Positions 1,471 to 42,940 of a DNA stretch of 42,940 nt are shown here, piece by piece. A program made the translations under genes and the position numbers. The notes under the pieces are model-generated. The model saw only the letters and a program-made list of their open reading frames with translations. It did no database searches and was not told the origin of the DNA. Position 1 is the first letter of the stretch. Each line of letters starts with the position of its first letter. The stretch is from the NCBI GenBank assembly GCA_009380075.1, contig WHSO01000025.1, forward strand, positions 1 through 42,940, in the 5' to 3' direction. Origin of the DNA: Alphaproteobacteria bacterium. Lineage in GTDB: Bacteria; Pseudomonadota; Alphaproteobacteria; SMXQ01.

Positions 1471-1784
1471 AATAAATGTGAACCGCCTCCGGTCGGCCAT
1501 ATTCGGGCAAGTGTCCCGGATATTGGCGGCGCAGCGGGCCCCTTCCAGCCGATTTCAAAGTCGTCGGCGCCTTCGGGTTCCCGGTACGCTCAGACGGTAT
1601 GGAGGATTGTTGAAGATTGAAGCCGGTGTTCCGGGCCTGGCGGTGTCGCCGGCCGGAGGGCAGGCCGGTCCCCCTCCCCGCATTCCATCGCGCGGGTCGA
1701 GATCAAGGCCAACGGCTTCGCAGACATAGCAGGCGATGCGCTGCCCCTCGCGGGCTTGGCGGCATTGCCGCGGAGAAAAATGAA
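1471..1784 (+). promoter_or_regulatory. long 5' leader of rne with hairpins
   Basis: The whole 1329-1784 gap (456 bases) between the divergent amidase and rne starts holds no convincing gene. An open frame runs into rne from 1617 but its peptide is arginine-rich and non-conserved in style. Two hairpins are visible: a 6-bp CCGGCC/GGCCGG stem (1649-1654 with 1663-1668) and GCGGC-ATT-GCCGC (1759-1771). The second ends exactly where the ribosome site GGAGA (1772-1776) begins. RNase E of E. coli limits its own mRNA through its 5' leader; a similar role here is inferred only from length and structure. Confidence 0.3.
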
Positions 1785-4379: not shown

Positions 4380-4402
4380 CTATCCTGTGATCCGAGGCAC
4401 GC

Positions 4403-4430
4403 GAAAGCCCCGCCCTGAGGCGGGGCTTTC
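4403..4430 (+). terminator. bidirectional terminator between rne and the aminotransferase gene
   Basis: A perfect 12-bp stem (GAAAGCCCCGCC, 4403-4414, with its complement at 4419-4430) closes a 4-base loop, with TTC following on the plus strand. It sits between the convergent stops of rne (4379) and the aminotransferase (4451). The A-rich and T-rich stem ends make it usable from both sides. Confidence 0.85.
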
Positions 4431-4450
4431 TTCATACGGACGACTCCGCC

Positions 4451-5617
4451 CTACCGCGCCGTCGTGCGGCGCTGCCACCACACCTCCAGACGGCGCACCG
4501 CCTCGCGCATTTCGTCGCTCGATCCGGCGTAGCTGAACCGGACGTAGTCCTTGCCGCGGACCACGTCGAAATCCAACCCCGGCGTCACCGCCACACCGGC
4601 GTCGTTCAGGATCTCGCGGGCGATGTCCGGACTTTCACCGCCGAACGCACCGATCCCTGCATATATGTAAAACGCGCCGTCGGCGGGGGCGAAGGGGCCG
4701 AAACCGCAGCGCGGCAACCCTTCGAGCAGCACCTCACGGTTTTCGGCGTAGCGGCGCACATTGGCGTCGAGGTCGCCCTTGCAGGCGAACACGACGCACG
4801 CGGCGTGCTGCGACAGCGTCGGCGGCGAGATGAACAGGTTCTGCGCCAGGCATTCAACGACGCGCGCGAGATCCGGCGGCACCACCATCCAGCCGAGCCG
4901 CCAGCCGGTCATGGAGTAGTACTTCGAGAAGCTGTTGATGACGATGGCGGACGGGGTGAGATCCGCCAGCGTTACGGCCGGTTTGCCGTAGGTGATCCCG
5001 TGATAGATTTCGTCGGAGATGACGCGCACGCCGTTCGTCGCGCACCAGCCGACCAGGCGCCGGATGTCGTCGGGCACCAGCATCGAGCCCGTGGGGTTGG
5101 CCGGACTGGCGAGGATCAATCCGTCGGGCGGGTACGGCAGGGCGGACAGCAGGTCCACCGTCGGCTGGAATCCGTCGGCCCGTTCCGCCGCCAGCGGCAC
5201 CGGCTCGACGTCGAGCGCGGCGAGGATATTGCGGTAGCCGGGATATCCCGGTGTGGCGAAGGCGACCCGGTCCCCCGCATCGAAGGCGGCGAGGAACGCC
5301 AGCACGAACGCGCCGGACGAGCCCGCGGTGACGGCGATGCGTCCCGCGTCGACCGCGACGCCATAGCGGGCACGGTAGTCGTCGGCGATGGCCCGGCGCA
5401 GTTCCGGCACCCCGAGGGCCTCGGTATAGCCCAGCCGTTCGCTCTCAAGGGCGCGGGCGGCGGCCTCAATCACCCCCGCCGGCGCGGCGGTGGAGGGCTG
5501 GCCCACCTCGAGGTGCACGACGTCGTGGCCCGCGGCGACGCGGGCATTGGCGGCGGCCATTACGTCCATGACGATGAACGGGGCGATGCGGCCGCGTCGG
5601 GATGCCTTGATCGCCAT
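4451..5617 (-). CDS. PLP-dependent class I/II aminotransferase
   Basis: This 388-aa fold-type I enzyme moves an amino group between an amino acid and a 2-oxo acid using pyridoxal phosphate. Visible family features are VGQPST near residue 38, the phosphate-binding TAGSSGA (97-103), PANPTGS (172-178), SDEIYHG (201-207) and the PLP lysine K232 in NSFSKYYSMTGWR. A C-terminal RFSYAGS carries the substrate-carboxylate arginine. The family covers aspartate, aromatic and alanine-type enzymes, and the sequence alone does not fix the substrate. The gene follows the gamma-glutamyltransferase-like gene after only 15 bases, so the two are probably cotranscribed; amino acids released from gamma-glutamyl compounds could feed it, which is inference. 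Confidence 0.9.
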   Translation of the reverse strand: MAIKASRRGRIAPFIVMDVMAAANARVAAGHDVVHLEVGQPSTAAPAGVIEAAARALESERLGYTEALGVPELRRAIADDYRARYGVAVDAGRIAVTAGSSGAFVLAFLAAFDAGDRVAFATPGYPGYRNILAALDVEPVPLAAERADGFQPTVDLLSALPYPPDGLILASPANPTGSMLVPDDIRRLVGWCATNGVRVISDEIYHGITYGKPAVTLADLTPSAIVINSFSKYYSMTGWRLGWMVVPPDLARVVECLAQNLFISPPTLSQHAACVVFACKGDLDANVRRYAENREVLLEGLPRCGFGPFAPADGAFYIYAGIGAFGGESPDIAREILNDAGVAVTPGLDFDVVRGKDYVRFSYAGSSDEMREAVRRLEVWWQRRTTAR

Positions 5618-5632
5618 ACCGTCGCCGGCGCG

Positions 5633-7264
5633 TCAGTTCTGTTGCGCGAGACCGAAGGCGCGGCGGTCGGTGCGCACGTCGCACAGGCTGCGTTCGGCGT
5701 CGAACCCGCGCGGGCAAATGAGGATATTGGCGCGCCCGAGCGACGGCGCGGTCACGATCTGGTGCCCGCTCTTGCGCAGGCGATCGGCGATGGCACGCGC
5801 ATCGGCGCGATCCTCGATCACCACGTGGTCGGGCCGCGCCGGATGATAGAACCGCGGCGCCGCCAGCATGGCCTCCGCGGTGTCCTTCGTTTCCAGCGTC
5901 TTGACGGCGGCCGTAGCAAGGGTGATCGGCACAATCGCGCCGCCTGTCGCCGCGCCCAGGAACTCGAGCTGCTGCTGGGTGTCGCTCCGCACTATCATGA
6001 GGCCGAGCGCCGCCGTGCCCTTTCCCTCCGGATCGGGCGGCGCGGCGATGACGATGCCGGTTTCCCGGGCCAGTTTCCCGGCGCCCATGGTGCCGTTCAT
6101 GGTGAAGGCGCAGGCCACCGCCCGACCGAACACATCGAGCGCGATGATGCTGGTCGAACCCTGATCCGCGGGCTCGACGAAAGCCGAGGCGCGGTCCATA
6201 ACCGGCGCAGGGCCAGCGGTGTCACGGCCGAGGCCTTCCATGAGCCGGTCGATGCGCCCCTCGGACACGAAGGAGTCCCCGTCGCCGATACCCCCGGGCG
6301 TGGCGAACCAGCGCCCGGCATCGGCGAAGGCCCGCCGTGAAACCTCCGCCAGGAGATTCGCCCGTTCGTCCGAGCCAAAATCGGACCATGCCCCCTCGCG
6401 ATAGAGCATCGCCCAGGCCTGGGCGGTGACGACGCCCGCCGGTGTCGGCGGAAAAAGGGCGAGCTGGTTGCCGCGCTCCACCGTCACCACCGGACGGAAA
6501 TGCGGGACCAGGCCACGCAGGCCCTCCGCCGTGAGCAGGGTCCCAGCGCGGGCGTAATCGGCCACGATCCGGCGGGCGAGTGGACCGGAGTACATCTGCG
6601 CCGGCTGGCGGCGCAGCATGCTCAAAGTCGCGGCCAGGGCCACCTGCTGGACCGGCGCGCCCTCTGCCACAGGATGGCCCAATTTGTCGGCGAAGATTTG
6701 CGCCATCCCCGGTGCGCTGACGCGTCCCGGTGCGCGTGCCACGGCGCGGGCAAAGGCCCGGCTCGCCGGGTGGCCAAGCCGGGCCATGCTCTCGGCGGGG
6801 CCGACCAACTGGGTCCATGGCAGGTGTCCGTATTTCGCGTGCAGCGCCTGCATCGCGCGCGGCGCGAGTGGCGCCACCTGGCCGGCGAAAGGACCGGAGG
6901 TCGGATGTGTGAACTCGATCGCCTCCTCCACCGCCTTGACCTTGTCGTGGACGAGGCAGACGCCGCCGGCACCGAGGGACGCGGCCGTGGGCAGCGTCAC
7001 CGCCATGGTGAAGTAGGCCGCCACTACCGCGTCGGCGGCGCTGCCACCAGTGGCCAGGATGTCGCGCGCCGCCAGCACCGCCTGGGGCTCGTCGCCGGCG
7101 ACGGCGCCGTTGAAGCCCTGGACATAGCCTTCGGCACGGGAGTCGAGGCCGGGAAGGCGCGAACAGCCCGACGCCAGGATCAGGGCTGAACACGCGCCAA
7201 TGACGATTTGACCGGCGCGCGACCGACGCCTAACCTTGCCGGCCCAATGAGTGAGATCGATCAT
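5633..7264 (-). CDS. gamma-glutamyltransferase-family lipoprotein
   Basis: Members of this N-terminal nucleophile family hydrolyse or transfer the gamma-glutamyl group of glutathione and related compounds after cutting themselves into two subunits at a conserved Thr. From the ATG at 7264 the protein is 543 aa. It opens with a basic region and hydrophobic stretch ending in a lipobox-like ALA-SER-GLY-CYS (C34), so it is predicted to be lipid-anchored in the periplasm. The N-terminal ARDILATGGSAADAVVAAY block (about 66-84) is typical. The self-processing Thr is probably T371 in DQGSTSIIALD, followed by AFTMNGTMGAG. It is divergent from classical Ggt, so the substrate may differ. The ATG is the only start that keeps the signal sequence; it shares CATG with the divergent M48 gene. 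A GAAGAG ribosome site lies 7 bases before it. Confidence 0.8.
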   Translation of the reverse strand: MIDLTHWAGKVRRRSRAGQIVIGACSALILASGCSRLPGLDSRAEGYVQGFNGAVAGDEPQAVLAARDILATGGSAADAVVAAYFTMAVTLPTAASLGAGGVCLVHDKVKAVEEAIEFTHPTSGPFAGQVAPLAPRAMQALHAKYGHLPWTQLVGPAESMARLGHPASRAFARAVARAPGRVSAPGMAQIFADKLGHPVAEGAPVQQVALAATLSMLRRQPAQMYSGPLARRIVADYARAGTLLTAEGLRGLVPHFRPVVTVERGNQLALFPPTPAGVVTAQAWAMLYREGAWSDFGSDERANLLAEVSRRAFADAGRWFATPGGIGDGDSFVSEGRIDRLMEGLGRDTAGPAPVMDRASAFVEPADQGSTSIIALDVFGRAVACAFTMNGTMGAGKLARETGIVIAAPPDPEGKGTAALGLMIVRSDTQQQLEFLGAATGGAIVPITLATAAVKTLETKDTAEAMLAAPRFYHPARPDHVVIEDRADARAIADRLRKSGHQIVTAPSLGRANILICPRGFDAERSLCDVRTDRRAFGLAQQN

Positions 7265-8615
7265 GCTTGGACTCTTCAGAACGCGTGCAGCGGTCCTCTT
7301 GACGTTGATTGTTGCTGTCTTTGGCGGGCTCTGGAACAAGGCCCAGGCGGCCAGCCTGATCCGCGACGCGGAGGTGGAAAATACCATCCGCGCCTATGCG
7401 ACGCCACTGTTTGAGGCGGCCGGTCTTCGCCCCCAGGACATCGACATTTTCGTGATCGGCGACCCGACCCTCAACGCCTTCGTGGCCGGGGGCCAGAACC
7501 TGTTCGTCAACACCGGATTCCTGATCAAGACCCGCGACGCGAGCGAAGTGATCGGCGTGATCGCCCACGAAACCGGCCATATCGCCGGCGGGCATCTGGC
7601 CCGGTTTTCCAGTCGAATCAACACATCGTCCAACGTCGCGCTGGTGACGACGCTGCTCGGGCTGCTGACCGCCATCGCCAGCGGCTCCGGCGAGGCGGGG
7701 GTCGCCGTCTCGCAGGCCGGGCAGGGCCTCGCGCTGGGCAATCTCCTCGCCTACAGCCGGACGCAGGAATCCTCGGCCGACCAGGCCGGGCTCGGGCTGC
7801 TTGACCGTACCGGGCAGTCGGCGAAGGGGCTCGCATCCTTCCTGCGCACCATCGAGAACCAGGAGTTCCTGAGCCCCAACAACCAGGACCCCTACGTCCG
7901 CACCCACCCGGTGACGCGCGAACGCGTCCGGCAGGTCGAACAGCACCTGAAGAAATCCCAATACAGCGGCACCAAGCCGTCACCGCAACTGGAGGAAATG
8001 CACCGGCGCATGGTGGCGAAGCTGGTTGCCTTCACCGATTATCCGGAGACGGTCTTCAACCGCTATCCCGAAAGCGACCGCTCCGTCGCCGCGCGCTATG
8101 CCCGCGCCATCGCGTATTATCGCATTCCCGATCTCGGCAAGGCCCTGCCGCTGGTGGATGGCCTGATCCGGGACGAGCCGAAGAACCCCTATTTTCATGA
8201 GCTCAAGGGCCAGATCCTGTTCGAGAACGGACGCATTGCGGAATCGCTCGCGCCGAACCGGGAAGCGGTCCGATTGCTGCCCGATTCGGCCCTGTTGCGC
8301 CTCGGTCTCGCCCGTTCCCAGATCGAAAGAAACGATCCGGCATTGAACAAGGAAGCGGTCGAAAACCTGCTGTTCACAACCCAGGCGGAACCGTATTACG
8401 CCTTCGGCTGGGACCAGCTCGCCATCGCCTACGGACGCGACGGCCAGCTCGGCATGTCGGCTCTGGCGCAGGCCGAAGGTGCTCTGGTGCGCGGCCGGAA
8501 AAAAGACGCGCTGTCCCACGCCGCCCGTGCCGAAAAGCGCCTCGACAAGGGATCCGCCGCCTGGCTGCGGCTGCAGGATATCAAGCGGGTCGCCAAGGAA
8601 AAAGATACGAGATAG
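7263..8615 (+). CDS. periplasmic M48 metalloprotease with TPR tail (BepA-like)
   Basis: This is a zinc metalloprotease of the BepA/YfgC type, which in other bacteria helps assemble or clear outer-membrane proteins such as LptD and BamA. With the ATG at 7263 it has 450 aa, a signal peptide (cleavage near residue 29, ALA-GLN-ALA), and the M48 zinc site HETGH (102-106) followed by the third-ligand region TQESSADQAGL. A helical tetratricopeptide-like region fills the C-terminal half (about 230-450; for example ARAIAYYRIPDLGKALPLVD). A GTG at 7251 would add four residues. The leader is almost absent because the start abuts the divergent lipoprotein gene. The gene converges on maiA with 5 bases between stops. 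Confidence 0.9.
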   Translation: MLGLFRTRAAVLLTLIVAVFGGLWNKAQAASLIRDAEVENTIRAYATPLFEAAGLRPQDIDIFVIGDPTLNAFVAGGQNLFVNTGFLIKTRDASEVIGVIAHETGHIAGGHLARFSSRINTSSNVALVTTLLGLLTAIASGSGEAGVAVSQAGQGLALGNLLAYSRTQESSADQAGLGLLDRTGQSAKGLASFLRTIENQEFLSPNNQDPYVRTHPVTRERVRQVEQHLKKSQYSGTKPSPQLEEMHRRMVAKLVAFTDYPETVFNRYPESDRSVAARYARAIAYYRIPDLGKALPLVDGLIRDEPKNPYFHELKGQILFENGRIAESLAPNREAVRLLPDSALLRLGLARSQIERNDPALNKEAVENLLFTTQAEPYYAFGWDQLAIAYGRDGQLGMSALAQAEGALVRGRKKDALSHAARAEKRLDKGSAAWLRLQDIKRVAKEKDTR

Positions 8616-29643: not shown

Positions 29644-31023
29644 TCAGAACTTCGGCGGCGCGACCCCGCTGGCGTCAAGCTCGGCGACCAGTGCCTGCTT
29701 GAGGCGTTCGAGTCCTTCGGCGCTCGTCGATTCGCAGCGCGCCACCAGGACATCCTGGGTGTTGGACGCGCGCAGCAGCCACCAGCCATCGGCCGTCTGG
29801 ACGCGCACGCCGTCGCAATCGTTGACCCTGGCACCGGCCTTGAGCAGACGCGCCTTGACCTCCTCGACCACCGCAAACTTGCGCGTATCGGCGCAGGGAA
29901 AGCGCAACTCCGGCGTGTTAATGACGGCCGGGAGCTCGTCGCGCAGGTCCGCCAGCGTCTTGCCCGACCGTCCAACGAAGGACGCCAGCCGTACCGCGGC
30001 ATAGAGCGCGTCGTCGAAGCCGTAATAGCCGTCGGCGAAGAAGATGTGGCCGCTCATCTCCCCGGCGAGGGGCGCGCCCGTCTCCGCCATCTTCGACTTG
30101 ATCAGGGAGTGCCCGGTCTTCCACATCAGGGGCTGGCCGCCGATGCGCGCGATCTCGTCGAACAGCACCTGGCTCGCCTTGACGTCGGCGATGATGGTCG
30201 CTCCCGGATTGCGCGCGATTACGTCGCGGGACAGGAGCGCCATCAGCTGGTCCCCCCACAGGATGCGGCCCTTGCCGTCGACCACGCCGATGCGGTCGCC
30301 GTCGCCATCGAAGGCGACGCCGAAGTCGAGCTTTTCACGCGCGACCGCGGCGATCAGGTCGTTGAGGTTTTCGGGCACCGTCGGGTCGGGATGATGGTTG
30401 GGAAACTCGCCGTCGACCGTTTCGTAGAGCAGCACATGGCGCCCCGACAGGCGCTGGGTCAGCGCTTTCATCGCCGGGCCGGCCGCGCCGTTACCCGCAT
30501 CCCAGCCGATCGCGAGTTCTGCTGTAGTGCGGAAGTCGGACGCGAGCCGCGCAATGTAGTCGTCGAACACCGATTGCTCCCGTACACTGCCCTTGCCGGC
30601 GGTGAATTCGCCCTTGGCTGCGATCTCGCCCAGGGCCAGGATGTCGGCGCCGTAGAACGCCTTGCCGAGGGCCATGAACTTGAAGCCGTTGTACTTCGGC
30701 GGATTGTGCGAACCGGTGACCTGGATGCCGCCGTCGCTCTTGCCGGTCACCGTCGCGTAATAGAGCATCGGCGTCGGTCCCATGCCGATGCGGGTGACGG
30801 CCATGCCGCCCGCCGCCAGCCCTTCGACCAGCGCCACCTCGAGGCTGGGGGATGACTTGCGTCCATCCCGTCCCACATGCACCGTCTTGCCGCCCCGGGC
30901 GGCGAGCCATGTCGCGAAGGCCTGGCCCAGTGCCCGCGCGTCCGCTTCCGTCAGGTCCTGGCCGACCGTGCCGCGAATGTCGTATTCGCGCAGGATGGTG
31001 GGGTCGAAACGATGCGCTGCCAT
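29644..31023 (-). CDS. phosphomannomutase/phosphoglucomutase
   Basis: This alpha-D-phosphohexomutase interconverts the 1- and 6-phosphates of mannose and glucose, supplying sugar 1-phosphates for nucleotide-sugar synthesis. The 459-aa protein starts at 31023 with GGAGAGG 7 bases upstream and the typical [13 protein letters not shown]. The phosphoserine is S105 in [11 protein letters not shown], the metal loop is DGDGDRIGV, the sugar-binding loop is GEMSGHIFF, and the phosphate-binding domain ends the chain. AlgC-type bifunctional activity is likely but not provable here. It is last in the galU-ugd unit, 17 bases after ugd. Confidence 0.92.
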
Positions 31024-31040
31024 ACTCAACCTCTCCGTCG

Positions 31041-32363
31041 TCAGTTTGCCGGCCGGGCGGACGGCCGGCCGATGCTTGTGTAGGAAATGCCCGCGGCGGC
31101 CATTTCGGCCGGACGGAACACGTTGCGGACGTCGACCACCACCGGGGTGCGCATCGCCGCCTTGATCTCCGCCGGATCGAGGGAACGGAACTGGTTCCAC
31201 TCGGTCAGCAGGACCAGGCAGTCGGCGCCGGCCATGGCCGCGTCGATGTTTTCGGCGAAGGTGACACCGGTGAGCAGTTTGCGCGCTTCGTCCATGCCTT
31301 CGGGATCGAAGGCGCGTACCTCCGCTCCCGCCGCGACGAGAGCGGGCAGGATGTCGAGGGCCGGGCTCTCGCGCATGTCGTCGGTGTTGGGCTTGAAGGT
31401 CAGGCCGAGCACGGCAACGACTTTGCCTTTGGCGCCGCCCTCCATCGCCTGCAGGATCCTCTGGGCCATGGCGTGCTTGCGCGCATTGTTGAAGCTGACC
31501 ACGGTTTCGACGATGCTCACCGGCACGCCGGCGTCACGGGCCGTCTTGACCAGCGCCAGGGTGTCCTTGGGAAAGCACGACCCGCCGTACCCTGGCCCCG
31601 GGTGCAGGAACTTCGGCCCGATGCGCCCATCGAACCCCATGCCGCGCGCGACGTCGGTCACGTCGGCACCCACTTTTTCGCACAGGTCGGCGATCTGATT
31701 GATGAAGGTGATCTTGGTGGCGAGGAACGCGTTGGTCGCATACTTGATCAGTTCCGCGGTTTCGCGACTGGTATAGACGATCGGTGTATCCAGAAGGTTA
31801 AGGGGCCGGTACAGGCGCCCCAGCACGTCACGCGCGCGCGCCGAATCGGCGCCGATGACGACGCGGTCGGGGCGCATGAAGTCGCCGATGGCGGAGCCTT
31901 CGCGCAGGAATTCGGGATTCGAGGCCACGTCGAAATCCGCGTCGGGCCGCGCGGCGGCGATGATGCGGTGAACTTCGCACCCGGTCCCTACCGGCACGGT
32001 CGATTTCGTCACCACCACGGTGTAGCTGGACAACGCCCCGGCGATCTCTTCCGCGGCGGCATGGACATAGCCCAGGTCGGCGTGTCCGTCGCCGCGGCGG
32101 CTCGGCGTGCCAACGGCGATGAACACCACGTCCGCCGCCGCGACCGCCGCCGCCACGTCGGTCGAAAAGATGAGGCGTCCCGCCTCCGTGTTCTTCGCCA
32201 CGAGGGCGCCGAGTCCCGGCTCGAAGATCGGCATCTTCCCGGTGTTCAGGCGCGCGATCTTGTCTTCGTCCTTGTCGACGCAGGTGACGTCGAACCCGAA
32301 CTCGGCGAAGCAGGCCCCGGAAACGAGGCCGACATAGCCGCTGCCTATCATCGCTATACGCAT
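31041..32363 (-). CDS. ugd: UDP-glucose 6-dehydrogenase
   Basis: Ugd oxidises UDP-glucose twice with NAD+ to UDP-glucuronate, a precursor of acidic polysaccharides and lipid A sugars. The 440-aa protein opens with the NAD-binding [20 protein letters not shown]. The second family block [13 protein letters not shown], the helix K207 region, and the catalytic Cys C263 in [12 protein letters not shown] are all present. It sits 19 bases after galU and 17 before the mutase; the three enzymes give glucose-6-P to UDP-glucose to UDP-glucuronate. Confidence 0.95.
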
Positions 32364-32382
32364 GGTGCCGCCGCCCGACCGT

Positions 32383-33264
32383 TCATTCCCATTCCGACCC
32401 CGACGCGCGCAGGAACTGCATCAGCCGGTCCCGCATGTCCGGGTCTTTCAGGCCGAATCCGACCTGGGCCTCGACGAATCCGATGCGCGAACCGCAGTCG
32501 AAGCGCCGCCCGCCGCAGCGCAGACCGTGGAACGGTGCGCGGCCGATCATCTTCGCCATCGCGTCGGTCAACTGGATCTCGCCCCCGGCGCCGCGTTCGG
32601 CCTTCGCGATATGCTCGAACACCTCGGGCAACAAGACATAGCGCCCGATGACCGTCAGGGTCGACGGCGCCTTTTCCGGTTCGGGCTTTTCCACCAGACC
32701 CTTGACCTCCGCCATGATGCCGTCGTCGGCGCCGATGTCGAGCACGCCGTAGCGCCGCGTCAGTTCGCGCGGAACCTCCTCGACCGCAACGACGTTGCCG
32801 CCGGTTCTTTCATGGACCGCCACCATCTGCGCCAGCGCCGGCGGCGCGGCGTCCATCAGGTCGTCGGGCAGGATCACGGCAAAGGGTTCATCCCCCACCA
32901 GGTCGCGGGCGCAGCCGACGGCATGGCCGAGGCCGAGCGGCTGCCCCTGGGGCACGCAATGGATGGAGCCCTTGGGCGGTTCGCCGTCGCGCAGGCGCCT
33001 GACCAGGGCGGGATCCTTGGCGGCAAGCTCGGCCTCGAGCGTGGCAACCATGTCGAAATGGGCACGCAGCGTCGGTTCATTGCGCTGGTTGGTGACGAAG
33101 ATGAACGTTTCGATGCCGGCCGCGCGGCCTTCGGCGACGGCATAATCGATCAGCGGACGGTCGACGATGGGCAGCATTTCCTTCGGTACGGCCTTGGTCG
33201 CGGGAAGAAAACGGGTGCCCAGACCAGCCACGGGGAGCACCGCCTTGCGAACTTTGCGCGTCAT
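32383..33264 (-). CDS. galU: UTP--glucose-1-phosphate uridylyltransferase
   Basis: GalU makes UDP-glucose from UTP and glucose-1-phosphate. The ATG at 33264 follows AGAGGA closely and opens as MTRKVRKAVLPVAGLGTRFLP, the nucleotide-binding signature; an in-frame extension to 33339 looks like noise. KAVPKEMLPIVDRPLIDY, QPLGLGHAVGCA and VILPDDL follow in the order of the family. 293 aa. The open frame, the spacing and the function all tie it to ugd and the mutase downstream. Confidence 0.96.
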   Translation of the reverse strand: MTRKVRKAVLPVAGLGTRFLPATKAVPKEMLPIVDRPLIDYAVAEGRAAGIETFIFVTNQRNEPTLRAHFDMVATLEAELAAKDPALVRRLRDGEPPKGSIHCVPQGQPLGLGHAVGCARDLVGDEPFAVILPDDLMDAAPPALAQMVAVHERTGGNVVAVEEVPRELTRRYGVLDIGADDGIMAEVKGLVEKPEPEKAPSTLTVIGRYVLLPEVFEHIAKAERGAGGEIQLTDAMAKMIGRAPFHGLRCGGRRFDCGSRIGFVEAQVGFGLKDPDMRDRLMQFLRASGSEWE

Positions 33265-33300
33265 TTCCTCTGCTTTTGTCCGGTTGGTTGTGGCATTGAC

Positions 33301-33337
33301 GGCACAGGCGGCGCGATGGAGCGCGCCACTTTGTGCC
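33301..33337. repeat. inverted repeat between the J-domain gene and galU
   Basis: GGCACA (33301-33306) pairs with TGTGCC (33332-33337), and inside it GGCGCG (33310-33315) with CGCGCC (33322-33327). It fills part of the 107-base gap between the J-domain stop and galU. There is no T-tract, so it may be a processing or attenuation hairpin that sets relative expression of the two halves of the operon. Confidence 0.4.
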
Positions 33338-33371
33338 ACAGGGTCTGTCCCCGGGGCAAGGGTCTGGGGAT

Positions 33372-34103
33372 TCAGCGCCGCTTCAGCAGTGTATCCTTCG
33401 CCTGGTTAATTTTTGCGGCAAGATAGGTCGAACCGCCTCGATCAGGATGCAGCTTAGCCATTAGACGGCGGTGAGCCTCTTTTATGTCATCGACCCCCGC
33501 ATTTGGGCCCAGACCCAGGATTTCGAGGGCTTCAGGCTCCGTCATGCCGGACAGCCCGGCGCGGCCCGACCCCCCTTCGCGCGACGAGCCGGCACCGGTA
33601 CCTTCGTCCGCCGCGCCGCCGCGCCAGCCGGGCCCATGCACGCGGTCGAGATAGGCCTCAAGCACGCCGACCGAATCGGGGTCGGCACCGACCTCGTCCA
33701 GGAGTTCCCGCAACTCGTCGAGCGACATTCCCGCCAGCCCCCGCCCCGCGAAGCGGCCGCGCAGGACCGCGCCCCGCATGGCGCCGCTGTCGTGATCGAG
33801 CTCCATCCGGAGCCAGCCGGTATTGACGTCCGAGCGGCCGCCGGGCGCCGGCCCCTGCGCGTTCCGGCGCCGCATACGGTTGGATCGCCACTGGAAGTAG
33901 ACCGGCAGGGCGAGCGGAACGAGGTACATCAGCCATTGCAATCGATCGCTGACAAACAGCACGACGCCGATAATCAGAAGGGCGACACCGCCCGCCACCT
34001 TGACCGTCCAGGCAAGGAGCCGCGGATCGGCGTTGGCGATCCACCGCGCCAGCAGCAGCAGCGCCACCAGAGCCCCGACGCCAAGAATGAAATATCCCAC
34101 CAT
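33372..34103 (-). CDS. membrane protein with C-terminal J domain (TIM14/Pam18-like)
   Basis: The 243-aa protein has two N-terminal membrane segments (about 4-22 and 35-70), an Arg-rich cytosolic stretch, a central conserved [20 protein letters not shown] and [12 protein letters not shown], a Gly/Ser linker, and a short C-terminal J domain (about 185-243). The HPD motif that triggers DnaK ATPase is at 219-221 in KLHPDRGG. A membrane anchor followed by a C-terminal J domain with the HPDRGGS form resembles mitochondrial TIM14/Pam18 and its alphaproteobacterial relatives. It should recruit DnaK to the inner membrane. It is 4 bases downstream of the VWA gene. Confidence 0.87.
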
Positions 34104-34107
34104 CGGG

Positions 34108-34830
34108 CTATTTCATCGCGTTGGTCAGGAGACGCACCGCGCCCGTGCGACCGCCGGAGTAGTCGAGCAGCGCCTTGCGACCGCCCGCGGCATAAACGGC
34201 AACGGCCGACAGCAGTTCCTTGAGCTGATCCGCCGAGCCGGAATCGAACGGGCAATAGGCCCCCTTCGACAGTTTGGCGATCTGGCGGAAACCGCGTGCG
34301 GCCACGGGATCGCGTCCTTCATGGAACACGAACACCGGTACGCCGAGGAGGCCGAGTTCGCCGGCGTGCTGGCACAGGTCGTCCACCGACTCCTCCATCG
34401 CATCGCCGACGAAGACCATCGCGTCCACCTTCTTCTTGCGGGTTTCCCGGGCGGCATGGAGCAGCACGCGGGCGATCTGGGTGCGGCCGCCGAGGCACTG
34501 CACCGCCGTCATGCGCCGCACCAGGGCGGTGGAATCGATGACCCAGGGGCTCGCCTTGCATTCGTCGTAGCCGCGGTAGAAGACGAGCTGGACCTCGAGC
34601 CCGCCCAAGGCATTGGTGGCCGTGAACATGTCGCCCTGGATGGCGCAGGCCCGGTCCCAGGTCGGCTCGCGGCTGGCGGTCGCGTCCAAGGCGAAGATCA
34701 GCCGGCCGCGCCGCGCCGTCGTCCGCGGCGGGACGGCGGCGACCTCGCGCAGGAATCGGTCCACCGCCCCTGACCGGGGCTTTCCGGGGGCCCGTTCGGT
34801 ACGCCTGCTGATGGGCCGCTTGTCAGCCAT
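34108..34830 (-). CDS. VWA-domain protein of unknown function
   Basis: The 240-aa protein is a von Willebrand factor A-like domain: [18 protein letters not shown] near residue 42 holds a metal-site DATAS, a variant of the usual Asp-x-Ser-x-Ser. [15 protein letters not shown] and [18 protein letters not shown] form the next strands with further acidic residues. There is no signal peptide, so it should be cytosolic. It leads a minus-strand unit with the J-domain gene and perhaps galU-ugd-mutase. A chaperone or complex-assembly role with the J protein is inference. The ATG at 34830 has no clear ribosome site. Confidence 0.8.
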
Positions 34831-34990: not shown

Positions 34991-36262
34991 ATGACCGGGA
35001 GAGAAACGTTGGCCGAGGCCCAGGGCACGGCGGCGTCGCAGGCGTCCGATCCAATACCATCCAGTCCGGCCGCATCGCGAAAGGCGATCTACGCCGCGTT
35101 CGGCGTCGGGCTGACCTCGAACTCGGTCGCCATGATGACCAAGGTAGTGTTTGCGCTGTGGGCGGTGCACCTGCATCTGTCCCCCAGCGCCATCGGCGTC
35201 GCCGCCTCCGCCGGCGCCCTCCTGCCCTTCCTGCTGTCGATCCACGGCGGCGTGCTCATGGACCGGCTTGGGGCCCGCCGGGTGACGCTCGCCTACGTCG
35301 TCACCACGGCCCTGGCGATGCCGCTCTATCCGGTTCTTCCGTACTTCTCCGCCATCATCGTGCTGCAGCTCATCACCGGGCTCACCGCCAACATGGGCTG
35401 GGTCGGGGCGCAGACACTGATCTGCAACCTGTCGTCGGGGAAGACGGCGCTGATCTCCAAATTCTCCGTCGCCGGCAAGATCGGGACGCTTGTCGCTCCG
35501 GTCGCGGTCGGCGCCACCTGGGACCTGGGCGGACCGTGGGGCGCGTTTGCTTTCGTCACGCTGGCCTCGTGGCTCGTCGTCGTTGCCCTGTGGTTCGCGC
35601 CCACGGATCCCGACACGACGCCACGACCCACGGCACGGGACGTGGCGCGCGAACTGGCGCCGAAACTGTCCGACTATATCCGGGCCTTTTCCCTGATCGC
35701 CATCCCCACGGTCGCCTTCGTCGTGGTCATGAGCGCGCTCCGGATTTCGTCCAGCGCCGTGCAGACGTCGTTCTACGTCGTCTACCTGCGCGACATCGGC
35801 ATGATCGGCACCCTGATCGGCGTCCTCGTCGCGGTATCCGAGGGCGCGGGCCTCCTCGGCGCCCTGATGGCGGCGTTCTGGGAGAAGTATTTCAAGCCGC
35901 ACTGGGTGTTCATCATGTTCGTGGTGGTATCGCTGCTGTTCGTATCGATCACGCCGGCGCTGGGTGGGGTTTTCGTCCTGTTGGCGATGGCGACGTTCAT
36001 GCGCGGTTACGGCCAGGGGCTGAGCCAGCCGGTCATGTTCGGCATCCTGTCGCGCGCCGTGAGCCGCAACGAACAGGGCACCTCCATCGGCCTGCGAACC
36101 ACGTCGAATCGCTTCGCCACCCTGGTCGTACCCGCCATCATGGGCGTCGTCGCCGAGGCGGTCGGACTCGAAGCGAGCTTCTACTGGATCGGCGGCTCGC
36201 TCATCGCCATGACCCTCTGCGTCGCGCTGTTCATGCGCCGCCTGCCCGGGTTTAAGTCCTGA
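34991..36262 (+). CDS. MFS transporter, array member 1
   Basis: This is a 423-aa major facilitator protein with about 12 membrane segments, first of seven related genes in a row. The motif A loop reads SIHGGVLMDRLGARR after TM2; GWVGAQT lies in TM4; PKLSDY precedes the second half; TSFYVVYL and QPVMFGILSRAV, with NEQGTSIGLRTTSNR, follow. The ATG at 34991 lacks a ribosome site; a TTG at 35009 (residue 7) has GGGAGAG well placed and is a serious alternative. Its TGA overlaps the start of member 2 in CTGA. Substrate is unknown: drug, sugar or acid export are all possible for this superfamily. Confidence 0.88.
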   Translation: MTGRETLAEAQGTAASQASDPIPSSPAASRKAIYAAFGVGLTSNSVAMMTKVVFALWAVHLHLSPSAIGVAASAGALLPFLLSIHGGVLMDRLGARRVTLAYVVTTALAMPLYPVLPYFSAIIVLQLITGLTANMGWVGAQTLICNLSSGKTALISKFSVAGKIGTLVAPVAVGATWDLGGPWGAFAFVTLASWLVVVALWFAPTDPDTTPRPTARDVARELAPKLSDYIRAFSLIAIPTVAFVVVMSALRISSSAVQTSFYVVYLRDIGMIGTLIGVLVAVSEGAGLLGALMAAFWEKYFKPHWVFIMFVVVSLLFVSITPALGGVFVLLAMATFMRGYGQGLSQPVMFGILSRAVSRNEQGTSIGLRTTSNRFATLVVPAIMGVVAEAVGLEASFYWIGGSLIAMTLCVALFMRRLPGFKS

Positions 36263-37512
36263 CCGCGCCCGCCCAGGCCGCAGCCCCGCAGCCCCGCGCC
36301 CTGGCGCTGAGCTACGGCGCGGGCCTTCTCGCGCTGGGGTTGTTCGACGCCTATGTCTTCATCATTCCACTGTGGGCGGTGCTGATCGGCGCCAACGCGA
36401 CGGAAGTGGGGCTTCTTGTCGGTATCCGCTCGCTCCTTCCGGGGTTGCTCGCGATCCACGGCGGCGTATTGATCGACCGCTACGGCCCGCGCCGTATCAT
36501 GATCGCGTTCATCACCGTGATCGTCGTGATGGCGCCCCTGTACCCGCTGCTGCCGTGGTTCGTACCGCTTCTGGTCATGCAGACGGTGATCGGGCTTGCG
36601 TTGACCATGCAGTGGGTCGGCGCCCAGACCACCATCGCCCATCTGTCGAAGGGCGACACGACCTATCTCGGCCGCTTTTCGTTCGCCTCGCGGGTCGGCA
36701 CATTCATCGCGCCTGTTGTGTTCGGGCTGCTGTGGGACCTGACGAGCCCGGCCGTGTGCTTCATCGGCGTCTCGCTGTGGGCCGCGGCGATGCTGGCGCT
36801 CACCCTGGCCATCACCGATGGCACGCCGGAGGCCGCCGCCGGTGGGACCGGTCGTCCAGCGCCGACGGCCGGCCGGCCGGCCGGAGGCCTGATCCGCGCG
36901 CTGATGCCGAAACTCTCCGACTACCGCGACACGCTGGCACTCTGCGCCATACCCGCCATAGCCGTTTCCATCGCCGCCTGCTTCCTGCGCAATTCGACCT
37001 CAAGCATTCAGGGATCCATCTACGTCGTGTACCTCACCGAGATCGGGCTCGCCGGCACGGTCATCGGCGTCCTGTTTGCCGCCGTCGAAGGAGCGAGCGG
37101 GCTCGGCTCCCTCGTCGCCGGGCGTGCGTCACGGCATTTCTCGCCCTTCGCCATGCTCACTGGTTCGACCGCCGCGGCAATTGCGCTGATCGCCGTCACG
37201 CCGCTTCTGGGCGGGATCGTCACGTTTCTCCTGCTGGCCCAGGTGGCCCGTGGACTGATCCAGGGAATTCACCAGCCCGTGGTGTTCTCGATCCAGGCGA
37301 AAGCGGTCCCGCGCGAACGCCAGGGCGCGACGGTAGCGCTGCGGGTCACGGTCAACCGCATTTCCGCCATTACCGTGCCGGTAGTGATGGGGATCCTGGC
37401 CGATACGTTCGGGATTTCGGCAAGCTTTTTCGTGCTCGGTGGCGTCCTGCTGGCGGGAACCGGCGTGTTGTGGCTGTTTGCCCGCCGGATTCCGGAGACT
37501 GCCGCTACATGA
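36259..37512 (+). CDS. MFS transporter, array member 2 (apparent CTG start)
   Basis: A 417-aa MFS protein, paralogue of its neighbours: AIHGGVLIDRYGPRR, QWVGAQT, PKLSDY, GSIYVVYL and QGATVALRVTVNR are in register with member 1. The frame is open from 36256 on, and no ATG, GTG or TTG occurs before a TTG at 36340, which would cut away most of TM1. The CTG at 36259 overlaps the previous TGA in CTGA, just as the other junctions use ATGA or GTGA, and the peptide then opens TAPAQAAAP, much like SAPAAPG of member 6. I therefore start it at CTG. Its stop overlaps member 3. Confidence 0.82.
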   Translation: MTAPAQAAAPQPRALALSYGAGLLALGLFDAYVFIIPLWAVLIGANATEVGLLVGIRSLLPGLLAIHGGVLIDRYGPRRIMIAFITVIVVMAPLYPLLPWFVPLLVMQTVIGLALTMQWVGAQTTIAHLSKGDTTYLGRFSFASRVGTFIAPVVFGLLWDLTSPAVCFIGVSLWAAAMLALTLAITDGTPEAAAGGTGRPAPTAGRPAGGLIRALMPKLSDYRDTLALCAIPAIAVSIAACFLRNSTSSIQGSIYVVYLTEIGLAGTVIGVLFAAVEGASGLGSLVAGRASRHFSPFAMLTGSTAAAIALIAVTPLLGGIVTFLLLAQVARGLIQGIHQPVVFSIQAKAVPRERQGATVALRVTVNRISAITVPVVMGILADTFGISASFFVLGGVLLAGTGVLWLFARRIPETAAT

Positions 37513-38777
37513 GCGATTCACGCTCCCAAGGGCGCCCGCAGGTGCCCCGCCGGGCCCTCGTCCCGGTGCTGGCAACCGGGCTCGCCACCAATGTCTACGC
37601 CGATTTCATGCTGATAGTCGTACCGCTGTGGGCGCTGCAGCTCGGCGCCTCGCCGTCGCAGATCGGGATCATGATCGGCGCACGTTCGGTCCTGCCCTTC
37701 CTGCTGACCATCCACGGCGGCGTGCTCATGGACCGGCTCGGCACGCGGCGGATGATGATGCTGTTCACCGCGATCACCGCGCTCCTGATCCCGCTCTACC
37801 CGGTTGTACCGTGGTTTCCGGCCTTGGTGACATTGCAGATGCTGACCGGCCTGTTTGCCAATCTGCACTGGGTCGGTGCGCAGACGCTGATCGCGCGGCT
37901 CGGCAAGGGCGACGCGTACTACCTGGGCATCTTTGCCTTCGTCTCGCGCGTGGGCTCCATCGCCGCGCCGGTCGTCATCGGTCTGATCTGGGACCTGACC
38001 GGCGCCAAGGGCGGGTTCGCCGCGTGCTTCCTGATCGCCTGCGCCATGCTGGCCACGGTGGCCGCGGTGCCGGCCTGGGGCGAGCACGGCAGCCGCGACG
38101 AGGCCGAGGCTTGCGCCCGCGCCCGGGCGACGAATCCGCTGCCGCCGTTCGTGTGGCGCGACGCGCTTCCGCGGCTCGCGGATTACACCGGCGCCATCGC
38201 GCTGATGGCGATCCCGGCGGTGGCGCTCGGCATCGCCGTGGCGCTGCTGCGCCATACGCCCTCCACCATCCAGTCGTCGTTCTACATCACCTACCTGAAG
38301 GATATCGGCCTGACCGCGACCGCCATCGGCTTCCTCATCGCCTGCGCCGAGGTCACCAGTGCCTTCGGCTCCCTGTTCGCGGCGCCTGCCATGCGGCGCA
38401 TCCCCATCCACTGGCTGCTGATCGGCCTGACCGGGGTGACCATCGCCCTGATGACGGCAACGCCGCTGTTCGGCGGGGTCTTCCTCCTGCTCGCCGCCGC
38501 CCAGGTGGCGCGCGGGGCCGGCCACGGGCTCCTGCATCCCGCCACCTTCTCGTTCATCGCCAAGGCCCTGCCCAACGATGCCCAGGCGCGCGGCGTGGCG
38601 CTCCGGACCACGGGCAACCGCCTCGGCGCGCTGGTGCTGCCCATCGTCATGGGCTTCGTCGCCGAGGCCGTCGGCGTGGAAGCGAGCTTCCTCGTCACCG
38701 GCCTCGGCCTTCTCGCGATCGTCGTGGTGATCGCCGTAGTCGCCGGACGCAGCCGCGCCTTCCACCGCGCCGCCTGA
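37509..38777 (+). CDS. MFS transporter, array member 3
   Basis: A 422-aa MFS protein starting at an ATG that overlaps the stop of member 2 in ATGA, with GGAGA about 10 bases upstream. Paralogue marks: TIHGGVLMDRLGTRR, HWVGAQT, PRLADY, SSFYITYLKDIG and ARGVALRTTGNR. The SQP of most members is LHP here, so this copy has drifted in that segment. The frame is open far upstream (to 36372) only as a shadow of member 2. A hairpin begins at its stop codon. Confidence 0.9.
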   Translation: MSDSRSQGRPQVPRRALVPVLATGLATNVYADFMLIVVPLWALQLGASPSQIGIMIGARSVLPFLLTIHGGVLMDRLGTRRMMMLFTAITALLIPLYPVVPWFPALVTLQMLTGLFANLHWVGAQTLIARLGKGDAYYLGIFAFVSRVGSIAAPVVIGLIWDLTGAKGGFAACFLIACAMLATVAAVPAWGEHGSRDEAEACARARATNPLPPFVWRDALPRLADYTGAIALMAIPAVALGIAVALLRHTPSTIQSSFYITYLKDIGLTATAIGFLIACAEVTSAFGSLFAAPAMRRIPIHWLLIGLTGVTIALMTATPLFGGVFLLLAAAQVARGAGHGLLHPATFSFIAKALPNDAQARGVALRTTGNRLGALVLPIVMGFVAEAVGVEASFLVTGLGLLAIVVVIAVVAGRSRAFHRAA

Positions 38778-38795
38778 AGCGGCGCGGGCCGCTTT
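38777..38795 (+). terminator. hairpin after array member 3
   Basis: AAGCGGC (38777-38783) pairs with GCCGCTT (38788-38794) around a GCGG loop, followed by TT. It starts at the last base of the member 3 stop. The T-tract is only three bases, so termination is likely partial. It splits the transporter array into two units; a weak promoter candidate, TTGCAT (38794-38799) and TACATT (38816-38821), follows. Confidence 0.5.
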
Positions 38796-38894
38796 GCATC
38801 CCGTCGCCAGGGCATTACATTGGCTCCGGCCCAGCCGGACCAACCGGCGGGGCGGGGTGCCGCGGCGCGGCGCCCGATAACCGAGAGGACGTCC

Positions 38895-40127
38895 ATGCCC
38901 CCGTCCCCCGCCGGGCAGCCCGCCTTGCAGCGGGCGAAGGTCTTTACCTACGCCAGCGGCATGCTGAACGACAGCCAGACGGAGCTGATCGGCTTCGTCA
39001 TTCCGCTCTATGCCGTGGCGCTGGGATTGAGCCCCCTGGAGCTCGGCATCCTGGTCAGCGCCAAGTCGATAATCCCGTCGATCCTGTCGATCCACGGCGG
39101 CGTGCTGATGGACCGCTACGGCACGCGTCTGGTGATGCTGTTGATGGGCATGGCGGCCACCCTGATGCCGCCTCTGTTCATCGTCGCGAGTTGGTTTCCC
39201 GCGCTTTTCCTGCTGCAGATGGCTTTCGGCACGATCATGTCCTTCGGCTGGATCGGCGCCCAGGCGCTGGCAGTCTATGTCGGCAAGGACGACCCCAAGG
39301 TGGTCGGCCGGTTTTCCTTTTTCGCCCGCGTCGGCGTCATGGTGGCGCCAACGCTGGCCGGACTGATGTGGGACTTCCTGCCCTACTGGGTCACCTTCCT
39401 CGCGACCGCCGCCGTGGGATTCCTTTTCTGGCTGGCCGTGCGCGCCATCCCGCCCGCCGCGCTGGGCGAAGAGACCGACCCCGACGTGCCGCGCCCCCGC
39501 TTCCGCCTGCGCGAGTTGCTGCCCAGCCTGTCGGACTATATCGGCGCCATCGGTCTTCTGGTCATTCCCGTGGTCGCCTTCGTCGTCGTGGTGTCGTCAG
39601 TGCGCATCGGCTCGGCCCACATGCAGCAGTCGTTCTACATCGTCTATCTGCAGCAACTGGGCCTGCAGGCGACCGTGATCGGGCTGTTCGTCACGTTGTC
39701 GCAACTGATGGCGGCCCTCGGCACCCTGTCGGCGGCCTGGTTCACGCGCTTCATCCACCCGCACTGGATGTTCCTCGGCATGGTGGTGATCTCGATAGTC
39801 CTGATCTATGCGACGCCGCTGTTCGGCAGCATGCTCGCCGTCCTGGCGCTCGCCATCGCCGTGCGCGGCTTCGCTCAGGGCGCGAGCCAGCCGGTCATGT
39901 ACACCATCCTGTCCCAGGCCGTGAGCCGCGAGACACAGGCGACCTCCATCGGCCTGCGCGCCACCGGCAACCGTGTGGCCGGCATCACGCTGCCCCTCAT
40001 CATGGGCGGGGTGGCGCAGGTCTGGGGGCTCAATGCGACGTTCTACGTCACCGGCGGGCTGCTGCTCGCCATCCTCGCCGCCAGCGGTATCGGAATCGCC
40101 ACGATCCACCGCAAGGCCCCGGCGTGA
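38895..40127 (+). CDS. MFS transporter, array member 4
   Basis: A 410-aa MFS protein that opens the second unit of the array. AGAGGA lies 6-7 bases before the ATG at 38895. Register marks: SIHGGVLMDRYGTRL, GWIGAQA, PSLSDY, QSFYIVYLQQLG, SQPVMYTILSQAV and QATSIGLRATGNR. Acidic residues follow AALGEETDPD between the halves. The 117-base gap before it holds the hairpin after member 3 and a possible promoter. The stop overlaps member 5 in GTGA. Confidence 0.91.
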   Translation: MPPSPAGQPALQRAKVFTYASGMLNDSQTELIGFVIPLYAVALGLSPLELGILVSAKSIIPSILSIHGGVLMDRYGTRLVMLLMGMAATLMPPLFIVASWFPALFLLQMAFGTIMSFGWIGAQALAVYVGKDDPKVVGRFSFFARVGVMVAPTLAGLMWDFLPYWVTFLATAAVGFLFWLAVRAIPPAALGEETDPDVPRPRFRLRELLPSLSDYIGAIGLLVIPVVAFVVVVSSVRIGSAHMQQSFYIVYLQQLGLQATVIGLFVTLSQLMAALGTLSAAWFTRFIHPHWMFLGMVVISIVLIYATPLFGSMLAVLALAIAVRGFAQGASQPVMYTILSQAVSRETQATSIGLRATGNRVAGITLPLIMGGVAQVWGLNATFYVTGGLLLAILAASGIGIATIHRKAPA

Positions 40128-41380
40128 GCGGACCCGCGGGAGAACCATCGGCCGCCGCCTCGGTACCCCGTGTCCCCTTGGGCACGCAGATCGCGGTTTA
40201 TGCCACCGGCAGTTTCGGCAACGGCAGCGAGGGCGTCTTTTCGGTCATCATGCCGCTATGGGCGATCGCCATCGGCGCCTCGCCGCTGATGGTTGGCGTG
40301 CTGATCGGCGCACGCCATTTCCTCTCGCTTTTCCTCTCGATTCACGGCGGCGCGATGATGGATCGCCTGGGGACGCGCCGGGTGCTGGTCGCGGTCGGCG
40401 TGCTGGGCATGGCGACGCCGCTCCTGTTTCCGGTGCTGCCGTTCCTGTGGGCCGCGGTGACGTTGCAACTGATCGGCGGGGTCGCCACCTCCTTCGCCTG
40501 GATGGGCGCCCAGGCGCAGATCGGGGAGCTCATGAAGGGCTCGGAAACCTACTCCGGGCGCATGAGCTTCTACCTCCGTTTCGCCCAGGTCGGCGGGCCG
40601 CCGCTGGCGGGCCTGTCTTGGGACCTGGGGGGCCCCTGGGGCGCCTTCGCCTTTCTCGGCCTCTGGGGCGTCGGCCTGTTCGCCGCCATCCTGTTCCTGC
40701 CGAAACCTGCGGCGGACACCACCGCCGCGCCAACCGCTCCTGTCGGATGGACCGACGTGCTTCCGCGGTTCAGCGACTATGTCGCTGCGTTCAGGCTTAT
40801 GGCGGTCCCCGCCATCGCCCTGATCATGATGCTGACGCTGCTCCGCATCGGCGGCAACGCGGTGCATTTTTCCTTCTACGTCGTGTACCTGAAGGAGATC
40901 GGCTACACCGGCACCGTCATCGGCATCCTCGTCGGGTCGGCCTCGATCCTCGGTTTCGGTGGGGCGCTGTCGGTCGGCCCGCTGGTGCGACGGTTTCGTC
41001 CCCACTGGATGCTGATCGCCACGGTCGCGGCCAATATCATCCTGGTGACCATCACGCCTCTGCTGGGCGCAGTATTCTTCCTGCTTCTCGTGGCGGCGGC
41101 GAGCCGCGGCGCCGTGCTCGGCCTCAGCCAGCCGCTGATGATTTCCATGCTGTCGCGGGCGGCCGGGCGCGGCAACCAGGGCAAGGCCGTGGGCCTGCGC
41201 GCCACCGCGAACCGGATCGCGGCCTCGTCCATTCCGGTCCTCATGGGAGCCGTGATCGAGGTAGTGGGCCTGCGCCAGGGATTCTTCGTCTTCGGCGGCA
41301 TCCTGCTTCTCCTGCTGGTGCCCTGCGTCTGGTATGCGGCCCGGGCGCCCGGCCTCGATGCGCGCGAGGCCGGGACGTGA
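40124..41380 (+). CDS. MFS transporter, array member 5
   Basis: A 418-aa MFS protein starting at a GTG that overlaps the stop of member 4. Register marks: SIHGGAMMDRLGTRR, AWMGAQA, PRFSDY, FSFYVVYLKEIG, SQPLMISMLSRAA and QGKAVGLRATANR. It appears closest to member 6 by shared variants (GGAMMDR, QGKAVGLR). AAGG lies 7 bases before the start, and translational coupling to member 4 is likely. Confidence 0.9.
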   Translation: MSGPAGEPSAAASVPRVPLGTQIAVYATGSFGNGSEGVFSVIMPLWAIAIGASPLMVGVLIGARHFLSLFLSIHGGAMMDRLGTRRVLVAVGVLGMATPLLFPVLPFLWAAVTLQLIGGVATSFAWMGAQAQIGELMKGSETYSGRMSFYLRFAQVGGPPLAGLSWDLGGPWGAFAFLGLWGVGLFAAILFLPKPAADTTAAPTAPVGWTDVLPRFSDYVAAFRLMAVPAIALIMMLTLLRIGGNAVHFSFYVVYLKEIGYTGTVIGILVGSASILGFGGALSVGPLVRRFRPHWMLIATVAANIILVTITPLLGAVFFLLLVAAASRGAVLGLSQPLMISMLSRAAGRGNQGKAVGLRATANRIAASSIPVLMGAVIEVVGLRQGFFVFGGILLLLLVPCVWYAARAPGLDAREAGT

Positions 41381-42612
41381 GCGCCCCTGCGGCGCCAGGG
41401 CGCGACTCCACGCCGAAAGTGCCGCTCCGTCTCGAGCTCGCGGTCTATGGCGCGGCGACGTTCTCCAATTCGCTGGGCTACATGATCATGGTGGTGCTGC
41501 CGCTGTGGGTGCTGACGCTGGACGTGTCGCCATTGATGGTCGGCGTCATCCTCGGCGCGCGGCACTTCCTGGTGCTGATCTACTCCATCCACGGCGGCGC
41601 CATGATGGACCGGCTCGACGTGCGCCGGGTGATGATCTCCTTCGGCGTGGTCGGCGCCGTATTGCCCCTGTTGTTTCCCCTGACGCCCTGGGTCTGGGCC
41701 CTGATCGTGCTGCAGATGCTGGCCGGCTACTGCACCGCGACCGGCTGGATGGGCGCCCAGGCGATCATCGGCCAGGCCATGCACGGCAGTGCCGTGCACA
41801 CCGGCCGGATGAGCTTCGCCGTGCGCATCGGTTCGCTGATCGGCCCGCCGGTGGCCGGCGCCGCCTGGGACCTCGGCGGTCCCTGGGGCGCCTTCGGCGT
41901 CCTGTCGGTCTGGGGGATGGGCATCGTGCTGTGTTGCCTTGCCCTCCCCGCCGGCGCACAGGGTGCTGGGACGGCACCGCGCCCGCGCCCGCGCCTCGCC
42001 GATCTCGTGCCGCGGCCGAGCGACTACGTCCTCGCCTTCCGGATGCTGGCGCTGCCGCTGGTGGCGGTGATCATGGCGGTTTCGGTCCTGCGCATTGCCG
42101 GATTCAGCATCCAGGCGTCGTTCTACGCGGTCTATCTGGAGGGGCAGGGCTACAACGGCACCGCCATCGGCGTGCTGCTCGCGGTCTATTCGCTGCTCGG
42201 CGGCGGGGCGTCGCTGACGGTGGGGTCGCTGACCCGCCGCATGTCGCCGCTTTGGCTGATGATCGCCGTCATTACCGGATCCACCGCCGCCATCGCGGTG
42301 ACACCGCTGCTCGGCAACTACGCCCTCCTGCTTATCGCCTCGGCGGTCAACGGCGCCTGTTACGGCATGAGCCAACCGCTGGTCATCACCACCACGTCGC
42401 GGGTCGTCGGCCGTGGCGAGCAGGGCAAGGCCGTGGGCCTCCGCACCACGGCCAACAGGCTGGCCGCAACCTTCATGCCGGTGGTCATGGGCGCAGTGGT
42501 CCAGTGGGCCGGACTGGCGGCCAGCTTCTACATCGCCGGCGGTACCGTCATCGTGCTCCTCGCCGTCGTCGCCCTGTGGATGCGTAGCGGCAAGATCGTG
42601 CCCCGATTCTGA
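41377..42612 (+). CDS. MFS transporter, array member 6
   Basis: A 411-aa MFS protein starting at a GTG that overlaps the stop of member 5; GAGG lies 7 bases upstream. Register marks: SIHGGAMMDRLDVRR (the Gly of motif A is Asp here), GWMGAQA, PRPSDY, ASFYAVYLEGQG, SQPLVITTTSRVV and QGKAVGLRTTANR. The next gene starts 61 bases later rather than overlapping. Confidence 0.9.
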   Translation: MSAPAAPGRDSTPKVPLRLELAVYGAATFSNSLGYMIMVVLPLWVLTLDVSPLMVGVILGARHFLVLIYSIHGGAMMDRLDVRRVMISFGVVGAVLPLLFPLTPWVWALIVLQMLAGYCTATGWMGAQAIIGQAMHGSAVHTGRMSFAVRIGSLIGPPVAGAAWDLGGPWGAFGVLSVWGMGIVLCCLALPAGAQGAGTAPRPRPRLADLVPRPSDYVLAFRMLALPLVAVIMAVSVLRIAGFSIQASFYAVYLEGQGYNGTAIGVLLAVYSLLGGGASLTVGSLTRRMSPLWLMIAVITGSTAAIAVTPLLGNYALLLIASAVNGACYGMSQPLVITTTSRVVGRGEQGKAVGLRTTANRLAATFMPVVMGAVVQWAGLAASFYIAGGTVIVLLAVVALWMRSGKIVPRF

Positions 42613-42673
42613 AACACCAGCGCGCTTGACCGGCCCGTACCCGCCCCCCACACTGGGCCCGAGGAAACGCCGA

Positions 42674-42940
42674 ATGGCCGAGAATATCGATTCCGCGCGC
42701 CCGCCCGCCAGCGAGGACGCCCCCATCCCGCTCGGCCATCAACTGCCAGTCTATGCCGCCGGATTCTTCTCCAACGGCTCGGTCATGCTGGCCAATGTCG
42801 TAGTGCCCCTCTGGGTGCTGCAGATCGACCCGTCGCCGGCGCTGGTCGGCATCGCGTTGGGCTCGCGCCAGATCCTTCCCGTGCTGCTGTCGATCCACGG
42901 CGGCTCCCTGATGGACCGGATCGGCATCCGCCGGGTCATG
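42674..42940 (+). CDS. MFS transporter, array member 7 (cut by window edge)
   Basis: The first 89 codons of a seventh paralogue, still open at the end of the window. GAGGA (42661-42665) lies 8 bases before the ATG. TM1 (PVYAAGFFSNGSVMLANVV) and TM2 lead to SIHGGSLMDRIGIRR, the same signature as the other six. The array therefore probably continues to the right, at least to the end of this gene. Confidence 0.88.
   Translation, partial: MAENIDSARPPASEDAPIPLGHQLPVYAAGFFSNGSVMLANVVVPLWVLQIDPSPALVGIALGSRQILPVLLSIHGGSLMDRIGIRRVM

Follow-up and report, generated by a model that had tools for sequence, protein, structure and literature searches.

The stretch of DNA analysed here (the window, 42,940 nt) is the entire contig C123 of a 3.54-Mb MAG consisting of 162 contigs. 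Its last 8 kb, from 34991 to 42940, are occupied by seven MFS genes (g1 to g7), all on the plus strand and arranged head to tail. The features of the locus are as follows.

29644..33339, minus strand: phosphomannomutase-, UDP-glucose dehydrogenase- and GalU-like genes (names by sequence resemblance), part of the synteny
33372..34103, minus strand: DnaJ-domain membrane protein, conserved upstream neighbour
34108..34830, minus strand: VWA-like gene, divergent from g1, assigned by eye without a Pfam hit; conserved and marking the fixed site
34991..36262, plus strand: g1, 12-helix MFS protein of 423 aa (PF07690 match, tree, AlphaFold model)
36259..37512, plus strand: g2, MFS protein (PF07690 match, tree); putative CTG start
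37509..38777, plus strand: g3, MFS protein (PF07690 match, tree); ATGA overlap with g2
38895..40127, plus strand: g4, MFS protein (PF07690 match, tree)
40124..41380, plus strand: g5, MFS protein (PF07690 match, tree); GTGA overlap with g4
41377..42612, plus strand: g6, MFS protein (PF07690 match, tree); GTGA overlap with g5
42674..42940, plus strand: g7, MFS protein truncated after 89 codons by the contig end; complete on contig C161 (L052/L010)

A sequence-only reading of the window had described seven consecutive same-strand MFS genes, and these are real, as all seven match PF07690. The proteins g1 to g6 scored 102-121 bits against a gathering score of 33.4; the g7 fragment scored 26.4 bits, below the gathering score (E 4e-6). 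The only Pfam families detected were MFS_1 and MFS_1_like, plus a sub-threshold MFS_3 match for g6. The proteins align over their full length with common motifs and a pairwise identity of 34-49%, and all seven belong to one MFS subfamily rather than to unrelated ones. We concluded that they are paralogues, as had been proposed.

Overlaps of 4 nt were found at four of the six junctions, namely g2/g3, g4/g5, g5/g6 and, only if g2 starts with CTG, g1/g2. The g2 frame opens past a TAA at 36253 and contains no ATG, GTG or TTG upstream of helix 1 (36253-36345); its sole in-frame near-start is the CTG at 36259, which overlaps the g1 stop as CTGA (4 nt). In one relative (G001) g2 has an ATG start 2 nt past the g1 stop. 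Gaps of 117 nt and 61 nt lie between g3 and g4 and between g6 and g7, respectively, and within the longer one GAGAGGA precedes the ATG of g4. The coupled translation that had been suggested for the whole array is thus compatible with four junctions, one of them conditional on the CTG, and not with g3/g4 and g6/g7.

Because the window comprises contig C123 from end to end, the truncation of g7 was attributed to the assembly. The start of contig C161 overlaps the end of the window (42645-42940 against 1-296 of L052) over 296 nt at 98.3% identity. The two copies differ by five SNPs, of which four are in codons and synonymous, and the contig break coincides with this strain variation. The MAG is therefore probably a mixture of two or more strains at the C123/C161 break. 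On C161 the complete g7 is followed by genes for an FAD oxidoreductase (PF01266), an unnamed membrane protein and MarC. The same three genes lie downstream of the array in G001, and the FAD oxidoreductase in G005. Since C161 completes g7 and continues with non-MFS genes, in agreement with these two relatives, the array ends at seven genes; reading past 42940 revealed no eighth copy on C161. The genome contains about 14 members of the subfamily, so that a run of seven far exceeds what chance would produce. Further tandem MFS genes occur in the same genome on C125 (L155, about 3435-7366, about three genes) and C160 (L156, about 1502-3823, about two genes). One of the C125 genes is a distant match to the array subfamily (25%), and the C160 pair was not among the matches of the subfamily search.

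Ten genomes of the same family (G001-G010; the window genome is G000) were searched and their loci cut out. Position g1 was present in all ten and is the anchor of the locus. A complete second heptad was found in another genus (G008) on one 19.3-kb contig, G009 contains all seven members in the same order, spread over three contigs, and G010 has g1 to g6 in that order up to the contig end. In G004, g1 and g2 are on one contig and g3, g4, g5 and g7 on another, without g6 in the array. Five genes each were found in G001 (g1, g2, g3, g4 and g6, without g5 and g7) and in G005 (g1, g3, g4, g6 and g7, without g2), where g5 had been relocated to C8:92556, 58 kb from the array. A wider tree with more dispersed copies confirmed that g5 and g7 are missing from G001 and g2 from G005. 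Three genes, the first being g1, are present at the locus in G002 and G006, and g1 is the single gene there in G003 and G007. The array sizes thus form a series of 1 (G003, G007), 3 (G002, G006), 5 (G001, G005) and 7 (G000, G008, G009), and array size changes at a fixed site. The g4/g5 and g5/g6 overlaps are present in most genera. Gene order is conserved in related genomes, and heptads in other genera show that the array is neither limited to one assembly nor an assembly accident.

The fixed site has the order PMM-UGD-GalU-DnaJ-VWA-like, followed by the array or the single gene. This upstream synteny is kept in G001, G002, G003, G005, G006, G007 and G010, and in G004 by the VWA-like gene. A divergent DUF3179 protein is encoded directly upstream of g1 in six loci (L141, 8131-9243; L138, L140, L144, L146 and L151) and is absent from the window.

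To place the array genes in their subfamily we calculated a maximum-likelihood tree of 65 proteins (LG+C20). Each position from g1 to g7 formed its own clade with support of 100/100, and the clade of g1 plus outer members had 100/99. The position clades hold one gene per genome from the same array place, with the exceptions of the relocated g5 of G005 and the dispersed copy L014 within g1. The genes are therefore orthologous by position, and the split of the paralogues predates the split of the genera, which bears out the old divergence supposed earlier. The expectation that the seven proteins form one clade was not supported, as dispersed copies branch among them: L014 lies inside g1, L017 beside g2, and five more among the outgroups of g5-g7. 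Since most dispersed copies also have their own orthologues in other genera in the wider tree, the array is part of an older family-wide expansion. The tree divides the array into two halves, g1-g4 and g5-g7, and their agreement with gene order suggests that stepwise tandem duplication gave rise to it. In a sample of 385 alphaproteobacterial genomes, this family and one other were the only ones in which the subfamily was detected at the strict threshold. In the other family, three subfamily genes form a conserved tandem of their own with position-specific orthologues (L077, 8694-12433; L078, 8726-12453; L084, L093 and L082). In a plasmid collection only distant MFS proteins of Bacillota were found, at 20-23% identity.

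The sequence-only reading had also assumed that the copies were kept by selection. Comparing g1-g6 of G009 and G010, we obtained a dN of 0.03-0.08 and a dS of 0.37-0.53, i.e. a dN/dS of about 0.08-0.17, and the array genes are under purifying selection. For the three array genes of G002 and G006 (L138, L144) dN/dS was about 0.5 (dN 0.04-0.06, dS 0.09-0.11); here relaxed or diversifying selection, or codon-bias effects, are possible.

Mean identity was 62-72% within positions and 33-47% between positions, and 37 columns are invariant across all 43 array proteins. Using helix boundaries taken from the AlphaFold model of g1, we found polar or charged columns in helices 1, 2, 7, 8 and 10 that are fixed within positions and different between them. 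Residue 51 of helix 1 is Lys in every g1, and residue 48 is Asp in g2 and g3 and Glu in g4. Residue 284 of helix 8 is Glu in g1-g3, Gln in g4 and Ser in g5 and g6, and residue 342 of helix 10 reads, from g1 to g7, Gln, Gln, His, Gln, Leu/Met, Tyr and Met. Such position-fixed central residues are the main evidence for different substrates. Position-specific residues made up 17 of 228 in central and 3 of 91 in peripheral helices, a small excess. Of 83 members, 77 have the intramembrane arginine R251 in helix 7, which presumably resembles R269 of GlpT; by this analogy it suggests an anionic substrate.

The model of g1, the only member modelled (pLDDT 92.2, pTM 0.88), shows an MFS fold of two six-helix bundles. 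MFS structures were at the top of the structural matches, with SLC37A4/G6PT1 first (Z 40.9). We considered fold comparison as a means to discriminate import from export and rejected it, the fold being an ordinary MFS fold that does not discriminate. An intramembrane arginine in helix 7 and a similar MFS fold are also features of organic anion carriers of the GlpT/OPA and OxlT type; no sequence match to these exceeded the cut-off, and as many MFS folds score alike the likeness is a lead only. With NorA and the DHA antiporters (TIGR00900, 2A0121 model) the array proteins have in common the 12-helix MFS fold, a motif-A-like loop (GGxLMDRxGxRR) and part of motif C. They differ from these in their own IHGG, WxGAQ and RxxxNR motifs, in an identity of 17-19% in structural alignment and in curated scores far under the cut-off. 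No curated model reached its cut-off in the NCBIfam search of the array proteins.

The neighbourhoods of the relatives offer some indication of function. The absence of an enzyme among the genes, noted earlier, applies to the window; in two relatives (G009 and G010) g3 and g4 are separated by a 2OG-Fe(II) oxygenase gene. In G004 genes for molybdenum-hydroxylase subunits follow g2 at the end of one contig and precede g3 at the end of the other, where the two contigs would join. LigB, hydantoinase B, TauD and amidase genes adjoin dispersed relatives. Among the immediate neighbours of the subfamily (88 proteins, 140 Pfam families) no recurrent partner was detected, and a regulator or adaptor partner was rejected on this ground. 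The context leans to catabolism and, being eclectic without a recurrent partner, names no substrate. We also considered a partnership with Bug/TctC receptors, as a TctC-like gene occurs no more than 6 kb away at 33 loci. This proximity was judged mostly background, because there are about 60 TctC/Bug-type solute receptor genes in the 3.5-Mb genome and few independent cases are directly adjacent.

We consider it probable that the locus encodes seven stand-alone MFS carriers for different, probably anionic substrates in an ancient, order-conserved array. Within an uncultured order of Alphaproteobacteria the array would have grown, and in places shrunk, at a single fixed site of the chromosome. 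The proteins would be made from one or a few transcripts, and each probably acts alone by alternating access, presumably coupled to protons. Given the common framework with the helix 7 arginine, and central polar or charged residues particular to each position, the seven carriers most likely handle seven different small molecules, probably organic anions. Uptake is slightly favoured over export, because related loci contain or adjoin catabolic enzyme genes and the proteins have only an incomplete form of the classical antiporter motif C.

A panel of efflux pumps for drugs or metabolites, with divergent specificities on an intrinsic export platform, is a possible though clearly less likely reading. 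Two similarities point to export: by sequence, the exporter NorA is the closest protein of solved structure (E 4e-10), and in NCBIfam five of the six full-length proteins are most similar to the H+ antiporter model TIGR00900; the scores of this model, 27-50 bits for g1-g6 (g1 38.8), are far under its cut-off of 319.6. In motif C of helix 5 (GPxxGG), all 83 members have P170 and G174, but only 2 of them have Gly at residue 173, and 44 have Ala at residue 169. As motif C is incomplete, we did not file the proteins as DHA antiporters; moreover, the motif-B Arg of helix 4 was not seen in the eight proteins inspected. The most frequent neighbour families include neither a periplasmic adaptor nor a recurrent regulator, and the catabolic genes beside the relatives likewise argue against efflux.

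That the members form a co-expressed functional unit, either as mixed oligomers or as a sequential set for uptake, exchange and export of one metabolite class, seems improbable. Mixed MFS oligomers in particular, proposed earlier, would explain the order kept over genera and the overlaps; we regard them as very unlikely, since members have been lost or moved singly in G001, G005 and G004, and g1 is alone at the locus in G003 and G007, which speaks against an obligate hetero-oligomer. In addition, conservation within positions is lowest in the peripheral helices 3, 6, 9 and 12 (0.35 of columns fixed, against 0.53 in the central helices), which gives no indication of outer interfaces particular to each position. 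Also very unlikely is a by-product of dosage or recombination, in which duplicates of one function are kept by chance where the subfamily is numerous. The subfamily is indeed generally multicopy here (3-16 per genome), and the three-gene tandem of the other family would fit; yet young redundant copies would be similar, whereas the positions differ as described and their copies are orthologous across genera and under purifying selection.

Tandem MFS genes are known from Stenotrophomonas maltophilia, in which mfsB and mfsC are adjacent in one operon (PMC9342713); these are two genes, whereas the present array has seven with position-specific orthologues over several genera. In the open-access literature, which our search covered, no description of such an array was found. 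Transporter subfamilies are known to expand in tandem, and the array is an unusually long, well-conserved example of this; it also draws attention to an MFS subfamily that no curated family model covers. The natural series at this fixed site, with array sizes of 1, 3, 5 and 7, together with about eight dispersed lineages, lets the duplication and divergence of one MFS carrier be read while the duplicates stay in order, and the position-specific residues make substrate divergence directly testable. If the members should work together as a unit, this would be a new way to use MFS proteins.
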